Below, one piece after another: positions 4,978 through 9,975 of a stretch of DNA of 10,314 bases (positions are counted from its first letter, which is position 1; each line of letters begins with the position of its first letter). A program made the translations under genes and the position numbers. The DNA comes from Candidatus Schekmanbacteria bacterium RIFCSPLOWO2_02_FULL_38_14 (GTDB lineage Bacteria > Schekmanbacteria > GWA2-38-11). The stretch is taken from assembly GCA_001790855.1 (NCBI GenBank), contig MGDH01000003.1, positions 618 through 10,931 of the forward strand, read 5' to 3'. Under the pieces are notes generated by a model. The model saw nothing but the letters and a program-made list of their open reading frames with translations. It did no database searches and was not told the origin of the DNA.

Positions 4978-6384
4978 TTGAACGTAAAAGTCGGAATGAT
5001 AAGCCTTGGCTGCCCGAAAAACTCCGTTGATTCTGAAATAATGCTTGGGCTTTTGGAAAAAGAAGGGTTTAGGCTGACCACCAACAAAGAAGAAGCCCGG
5101 ATAATTATAATCAATACCTGCTCATTCATAGAGTCAGCCAAGAGCGAATCCATAGAAGCAATCCTGGAAATTACAGAGCTTAAGAAAAAAAACAGCCCGC
5201 TTAAATCAATCATTGTAACAGGATGCCTTCCTCAACGATATCAGGATAAACTAAAAAAAGAGATTCCTGAAATTGATTTCATGCTTGGTCTTAACCATGT
5301 CACAGATATTGTAAAAATCTGCAAGAAAAGTATTAGGAGAAATTCATCAATTCCCCCATCTCCCCTTTTGCAAAGGGGGGTAAGGGGGGATTTAACAAAT
5401 CTGCAACTATTTAAAAATTCTTCATGGAATTTAAAACAAAAAACAGGTCTATATAAATCTAATCTGCCGAGAAAACTCCTTACTCCAAAGGCAACAGCAT
5501 ATGTTAAAATCACTGACGGATGTGATAACTGGTGCTCATACTGCACCATACCTTCTATCCGCGGGAGTTTTAGAAGCCGGAGCATTGCATCAATAGTTGA
5601 TGAAGCCGCCATTCTTGCAGAAAATGGCGTCAAGGAAATCAACCTCATAGGGCAGGACACAACAAGCTACGGAAGAGATTTTAAGAAAAATATCAGTTTC
5701 ATAAATCTTTTAAAAAAGCTGATTGATGTAAAAGGCATTGAGTGGATAAGAATCCTCTACACTTATCCCTCTGAGATTAATCCGGAATTGATTAGCCTCA
5801 TACGCAGTGAAAAAAAAATCTGCAAATATCTTGATGTTCCGCTCCAGCATATTGATAACAGCATATTAAAAAATATGAGGCGAAGATACACCGGCAGGGA
5901 CATCCATTGCCTTATTGATAAAATAAGAAAATCCATACCTGATATTTCTTTAAGAACATCTATCATTACGGGATTTCCAGGGGAAACTGACAAGCAGTTT
6001 AAAAAACTCTGTTCCTTTATTAAAGAAATCGGATTTGATAATCTTGGAGCCTTTTCTTACTCAAGAGAAGAGGGAACAAAGGCTTATGCGTTAAAGAACC
6101 AGATTCCTGAAAAAGTTAAGATTAAACGCTTAAAGGAAATTATGAGGATTCAGAAAAACATTTCTTTTAGGAAAAACAAAAAACTGATTGGAAGCTGTCA
6201 GAAAGTCCTCATAGAAGGTTACTCACAAGAAACAGATTTGCTCCTTGCAGGAAGGATTCAGGGTCAGGCGCCGGATGTGGATGGAATAACATATGTAAAT
6301 GAAGGAAATCCGGCAACTGGAGAAATTTCTGATATCTTAATCACTAATGCCATAGGGTATGATTTGGTTGGAAAGGTAATCTGA
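4978..6384 (+). CDS. rimO: ribosomal protein S12 methylthiotransferase
   Basis: RimO is a radical-SAM enzyme that methylthiolates a conserved Asp of ribosomal protein S12, using two 4Fe-4S clusters. The N-terminal UPF0004 domain (1-115) has cluster cysteines Cys12 (SLGCPKNSVDSE), Cys48 and Cys83. The radical-SAM core has Cys182, 186 and 189 in GCDNWCSYC. A TRAM domain ends the protein at about 400-468. SLGCPKN and LPRKLLTP favour RimO over MiaB. The start is TTG, with AGGAG 9 bases upstream; the next in-frame ATG (4996) would cut into the conserved start. At 468 residues it is longer than the usual 430-445, because residues 124-139 are the translation of a palindromic repeat in the linker before the radical-SAM domain. 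All catalytic residues remain, so it is probably active. Confidence 0.95.
   Translation: MNVKVGMISLGCPKNSVDSEIMLGLLEKEGFRLTTNKEEARIIIINTCSFIESAKSESIEAILEITELKKKNSPLKSIIVTGCLPQRYQDKLKKEIPEIDFMLGLNHVTDIVKICKKSIRRNSSIPPSPLLQRGVRGDLTNLQLFKNSSWNLKQKTGLYKSNLPRKLLTPKATAYVKITDGCDNWCSYCTIPSIRGSFRSRSIASIVDEAAILAENGVKEINLIGQDTTSYGRDFKKNISFINLLKKLIDVKGIEWIRILYTYPSEINPELISLIRSEKKICKYLDVPLQHIDNSILKNMRRRYTGRDIHCLIDKIRKSIPDISLRTSIITGFPGETDKQFKKLCSFIKEIGFDNLGAFSYSREEGTKAYALKNQIPEKVKIKRLKEIMRIQKNISFRKNKKLIGSCQKVLIEGYSQETDLLLAGRIQGQAPDVDGITYVNEGNPATGEISDILITNAIGYDLVGKVI
5349..5393. repeat. C-run/G-run palindromic repeat, copy 2, inside rimO
   Basis: Within rimO, AATTCCCCC-atc-TCCCCTTTT faces CAAAGGGGGG-ta-AGGGGGGATTT, the same layout as the intergenic element at 78-125: two C runs, a short A/T-rich centre, two G runs and an ATTT end. 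The span is 45 bases, or 15 codons, and the frame stays open. It encodes roughly IPPSPLLQRGVRGD, a peptide I recognise as a common translation of this type of repeat in other genomes. Confidence 0.85.
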
Positions 6385-9829: not shown

Positions 9830-9975
9830 AAATTCTAAATCCTAATTTCTAAACAATGCTTCGACTTCGCCCAGTATGGTGAGCCTGTCGAACCATAAAA
9901 TTCAAATTCTCAAAACTGTTTTGGATTTAGATCATTAGGATTTTAACTTTGTTTAGAATTTAGGATTTAGAATTT
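9830..9975. repeat. 25-base inverted repeat around a nested palindrome
   Basis: The arms at 9830-9854 and 9951-9975 are reverse complements over 25 bases with one mismatch; the right arm starts GTTTAGAATTTAGGATTTAG. Between them lie a GC-rich palindrome (9856-9896), the near-palindrome CAAAACTGTTTTG (9911-9923) and AT-rich filler. The 146-base unit separates the DUF169 gene from the nuoD remnant. It could be a small non-autonomous insertion (MITE-like) or chance pairing of common filler. No target-site duplication is obvious. Confidence 0.6.
9856..9896. repeat. TTCGAC...GTCGAA palindromic repeat
   Basis: The arms ATGCTTCGAC and GTCGAACCAT pair at 9 of 10 positions around about 21 bases that hold a weaker inner stem (TCGCC with GGTGA). 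I recognise the core TTCGACTTCGCCCAG/GAGCCTGTCGAA as a type of palindromic intergenic repeat found in many bacterial genomes. It has no visible coding role. Confidence 0.7.

Follow-up and report, generated by a model that had tools for sequence, protein, structure and literature searches.

Most reports of palindromic repeats read in frame within coding sequence concern Rickettsia, Wolbachia and a number of species rich in REPs. The Rickettsia palindromic elements (RPEs; Ogata 2000, 2002) are approximately 100-150 bp long and, as far as the reviewing accounts go (PMC10969869, PMC2229807), are described from Rickettsia; an RPE-bearing guanylate kinase is both translated and active (PMC2229807). 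GTAG/CGTC REPs lie mostly between genes, but some occur in frame in open reading frames of known proteins, where they are probably tolerated in loops or linkers (PMC3733652). The palindromic elements of Wolbachia are likewise protein-coding, though in a different organism, and are likened here by their description as cited in PMC2229807.

The element presented here resembles RPEs in that its copies are hairpin palindromes that lie between genes as well as, in frame, within conserved genes unrelated to one another, and that encode a peptide which recurs from gene to gene. Unlike RPEs it measures only about 45-50 bp, is based on runs of C and G, and is found in some 30 sampled bacterial families. 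The initial annotation regarded it as analogous to RPEs: this holds for the mode of working, whereas neither in length nor in host range does it qualify as an RPE. With the GTAG/CGTC REPs it has in common that the palindromes are short, mostly intergenic and sometimes in frame inside open reading frames; it differs from them by having no consistent end tag (GTAG or CGTC lies within 8 nt of the end in a handful of 70 copies) and no clear RAYT flanking. Since neither the length of RPEs nor the end tags of REPs are found, we classify the element as a new family of protein-coding palindromic repeats, which represents the same phenomenon as RPEs and intragenic REPs and is set apart by length, host range and end tags. 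A search of the open literature (subscription papers being outside its scope) yielded no paper printing the peptides of the element, and none describing its DNA motifs by title or abstract.

The window (the whole stretch of DNA analyzed, 10,314 nucleotides) contains two copies. One is located in rimO, the gene for ribosomal protein S12 methylthiotransferase (4978-6384, forward strand; 468 residues; TIGR01125, 501.6 bits), which is a full-length, uninterrupted open reading frame that stays intact through the palindrome. The covariance model R1 matches 50 nt at 5346-5395 on the forward strand (C3:5963-6012 of the host genome G000) with 60.4 bits and E 6.4e-17, the rimO copy being one of the 26 copies from which this model was built; independently of the model, the same copy is found by BLAST with the intergenic copy as query (E 7.8e-8). 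The core palindrome spans 5349-5393 and consists of a left, C-rich arm plus loop (5349-5371, AATTCCCCCATCTCCCCTTTTGC) and a right, G-rich arm (5372-5393, AAAGGGGGGTAAGGGGGGATTT), both on the forward strand. As RNA it folds into a hairpin of -27.3 kcal/mol (z -3.8). The second copy (77-126 by the model, 67.9 bits, no strand assigned; approximately 80-129 in the pairwise match) lies in the nuo gene cluster just 3' of a nuoC-like open reading frame, flanked by the NADH dehydrogenase 30-kDa subunit, and forms a hairpin of -41.4 kcal/mol (z -5.9). The shared layout that had been noticed between both copies is borne out by an identity of 72% over 50 nt in direct and 84% over 45 nt in inverted orientation. 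No Rfam family matches the window up to E 0.1.

Within RimO the element encodes residues ~125-139 (IPPSPLLQRGVRGDL, with NSSIPPSPLLQR as the junction peptide), in the linker between the UPF0004 (residues 4-104) and Radical_SAM (177-348) domains that were located by a family scan, together with TRAM_2. The closest available RimO, from a genome of the same family and a different genus (G001), is 69% identical and can be aligned over its whole length; precisely where the element lies, it is 13 residues shorter. In more distant homologues the linkers are shorter still, and the solved RimO 4jc0 aligns on either side of the element stretch and not across it. The alignment with relatives that the initial annotation had proposed as a check therefore reveals no homologous segment at this position. 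An in-frame insertion in the linker, as claimed, is thereby upheld; the claimed size of 45 nt (about 15 residues) calls for a refinement, as the net difference with G001 amounts to 39 nt (13 residues), which means that either a few bases of the host went missing or the linkers have drifted. The AlphaFold model of RimO (mean pLDDT 81.6) superposes on the T. maritima structure 4jc0 over 416 residues (Z 42.5, 2.2 A), with residues 124-158 below pLDDT 50. The suggestion that a flexible linker accounts for the tolerance fits this low-confidence stretch in an otherwise well-folded model, but a second stretch (184-197, near the Fe-S loop) scores low as well. The element lengthens a flexible linker of RimO, probably without loss of activity.

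A search for further copies, likewise proposed earlier, shows that the two in the window belong to a large family. With the covariance model built from 26 copies (E below 0.01) we find approximately 70 distinct sites in the 2.68-Mb host genome (an assembly of 43 contigs), leaving out a weak match of 25 bits inside a TPR protein (C37:5120). BLAST with the intergenic copy also gives many matches in this genome. A first, strict sequence pattern gave no copies in the host genome; a looser one gives 61 matches per strand (overlapping matches included), against none genome-wide for the reversed control pattern. Copies are ~45-50 nt long, or up to ~74 nt when they hold a nested palindrome. This second palindrome, of the CCTGCCTGCCG..GGCAGGCAGG type, is nested in the loop of the first at four places in the host genome (C5:25472-25541, C42:151541-151613, C27:2932-3004 and C18:18718-18791); it is also seen in the window at 690-720, between the nuoB and nuoC open reading frames, and is translated in G001 (PACRQAG in L206).

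Two forms of the element can be distinguished. Type I is near-symmetric; type II reads CCCCTTAGTCCCCCTTTnnnAAAGGGGGATTYAGGGG, with the fixed spacers TTAGT and ATTYA. Six of the seven type II copies in the host genome are in long open reading frames and the seventh is in one of 91 residues, against 10 of 63 genic copies for type I (Fisher p 0.0004, a post hoc comparison). The hosts of type II are unrelated enzymes, and related forms are present in other bacterial families. All seven copies have the same orientation and frame, encoding IPLSPPLxKGDxGGFS, which is suggestive and not proof given that a type II copy is open in only two frames, one on each strand. It might be argued, rather speculatively, that type II is a selfish repeat adapted to the reading frame, whose DNA has been under selection to do no harm once translated, allowing the repeat to spread through coding sequence. 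Near the seventh copy (L173 ~1800-1850; C42:86144-86194 in the host genome) the upstream part of the open reading frame reads VIASDSEAISAE, apparently a further translated repeat.

Could the element chiefly be a functional RNA or DNA hairpin (marking transcript ends, stabilizing mRNA or acting on supercoiling), with the genic copies as incidental? Such roles have been proposed for REPs (PMC3733652). The hairpin is indeed stable and flanked by AAA/TTT, and the copies are located at a median of 49 nt from gene 3' ends. However, 42 of the 51 scored non-genic copies lie between same-strand genes, some of them inside nuo operons, and only 5 between convergent genes. Given this same-strand setting, nuo operons included, the copies are not simple terminators, and a bidirectional terminator as the main role was rejected on the same count. 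The function of a hairpin also leaves the almost entirely genic type II unexplained, so that we consider this explanation unlikely, although it survives better than the other alternatives discussed below. Covariation among the copies shows no excess over shuffles, hence we make no claim of selected RNA pairing.

Insertion in frame is not confined to rimO, as had been anticipated. Inspection of the fetched flanks shows that 16 of the 70 sites in the host genome are inside long open reading frames, where the element is read through in frame and free of stops. In half of these 16 the sequence of the protein family continues on both sides of the element (RimO, HemW, Ppx/GppA, a GT4 glycosyltransferase, an RND adaptor, PgeF, LolC/E and HisF); six others lie outside the first or last recognized domain (an LpxL-like acyltransferase, a PIG-L protein, a PorU-like peptidase, MiaA, NuoM and a GT2 enzyme) and two are in open reading frames without a family. 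The terminal copies in MiaA, the LpxL-like protein, NuoM and the GT2 enzyme could fall beyond the actual coding region or be harmless extensions, and N-terminal copies may be upstream of the true start. The encoded peptide has ~13-17 residues and is rich in proline, then in glycine and lysine, for example IPPSPLLQRGVRGD or the type II peptide given above. We infer that the in-frame copies are translated in the cell and are neutral.

These counts also bear on whether the hairpin is skipped, either by ribosomes that bypass it or through removal from the RNA or protein in the manner of byp elements, introns or inteins. With its strong, GC-rich hairpin placed inside a conserved gene, the element looks like a bypass element, such as the GC-rich byp elements of yeast mitochondria. 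Nonetheless, each of the 16 genic copies keeps the frame and lacks a stop, against ~44% of stop-free frames in the non-genic copies, even though this frame-keeping count is partly ascertained, the genic copies having been found via open frames. For the same reason it is only a partial test for purging of out-of-frame copies. Moreover, among same-strand genes on either side of an intergenic copy, the ten closest pairs include no split gene. As keeping the frame would be unnecessary under bypass or splicing, we regard both as very improbable.

Comparison with homologues shows empty sites in several of these proteins, with clean ones for HisF and PgeF. HisF has 39 extra residues (138-176, NNPPIPHLEKGDKGGF included), and solved HisF proteins align with residues 1-136/137 and 177/178-290, that is, without the insert (4evz: 1-136 and 177-290). 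In Ppx the gap of the solved homologue falls on the element (QIPPRPPLAKGGWGDL). PgeF aligns with its solved relatives over 16-195 and 247-310, and with G001 over 2-207 and 250-310, where the DNA of the empty site is directly adjoining; the insert of 42 residues contains one full element plus one partial element. Shared sites are found as well: LolC/E and the GT4 glycosyltransferase have an insertion at the same place in G001, with related peptides and the frame kept, while LolC of G002 is without insertion. Taken together, the empty and shared sites imply that some insertions are lineage-specific, whereas others predate the split of the two genera or recurred at the same spot. In RimO and PgeF no target-site duplication could be demonstrated, as the linkers are too diverged and the PgeF insert exceeds one element.

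With 43 contigs, and repeats being able to cause misjoins, the pattern might also be thought to arise from contigs joined wrongly at a repeat. In rimO, however, both flanks belong to a single RimO that aligns end to end, and an insertion of this kind is also seen in HisF, PgeF, Ppx and LolC, as well as in assemblies independent of this one, which makes such an artefact highly implausible. Finally, a Pro/Gly-rich linker with a mere chance likeness to the intergenic repeat can practically be discarded: linkers are often low in complexity, but the score of the covariance model, the independent BLAST match, the empty result for the reversed pattern and the lack of the segment in G001 all oppose it.

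Similar tendencies are observed in other genomes, where the element has close copies in many unrelated bacteria and so is not unique to its host. The same covariance model finds ~75 copies in G001, a small number in G002 and hardly any in G003. Under stricter filtering, matches at E below 1e-8, some with 68 bits, occur in 37 of the 386 genomes sampled (~30 families). The genic fraction differs among the examined sites: 5 of 32 in G001, 2 of 2 in G088 (one of them in a Sua5/YrdC protein) and 7 of 8 in G173, where the long open reading frames concerned include GMP synthase, RNase J, an AcrB-type pump and peptidases. The G173 GMP synthase has an inserted segment in comparison to E. coli GuaA. In addition, the exact type I core is present in 64 stretches of viral or proviral contigs from IMG/VR (L307-L370). 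A plasmid search with the element returned no matches.

In our view the element is very probably a short, non-autonomous palindromic mobile repeat, REP- or MITE-like, whose genic copies survive when they fit the host gene and are then translated. The element would have multiplied within the host genome and its relatives, with most copies ending up between genes. A copy landing in a gene would survive only if it keeps the frame, brings no in-frame stop and is located in a loop, a linker or at a terminus, after which it would be translated as the Pro-rich, then Gly/Lys-rich peptide. How the repeat moves can be put forward only tentatively: the element as a whole is an inverted repeat, and a Y1/HUH transposase recognizing the hairpin is a possible candidate. 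Y1 transposases act on hairpins in the IS200/IS605 and RAYT systems. Five of the six genomes tested encode them, the host included; G173 does not, despite its many copies. Of the 12 transposase loci searched, two (in G001 and G002) contain copies of the element, and none of the three in the host genome does.

The family points to short mobile repeats as a general source of novel protein segments, and the many natural pairs of orthologs with and without insertion provide material for testing tolerance. It also accounts for unusual P/G-rich inserts of a kind that might lead annotation and structural work astray.

Some further irregularities were seen. At 9830-9975 of the window a pair of 27-nt inverted repeats (96% complementary, 92 nt apart) flanks the segment TGCTTCGACTTCGCCCAGTATGGTGAGCCTGTCGAAC, which itself looks like a dispersed repeat. 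The NuoF-like protein and NuoH (L162 and L134; contigs C10 and C36 of the host genome) exceed the lengths of their profiles, with 172 residues in the Nuo51 domain stretch of the former against 149 profile positions and 326 residues against 296 positions in the latter; both may carry other in-frame inserts.
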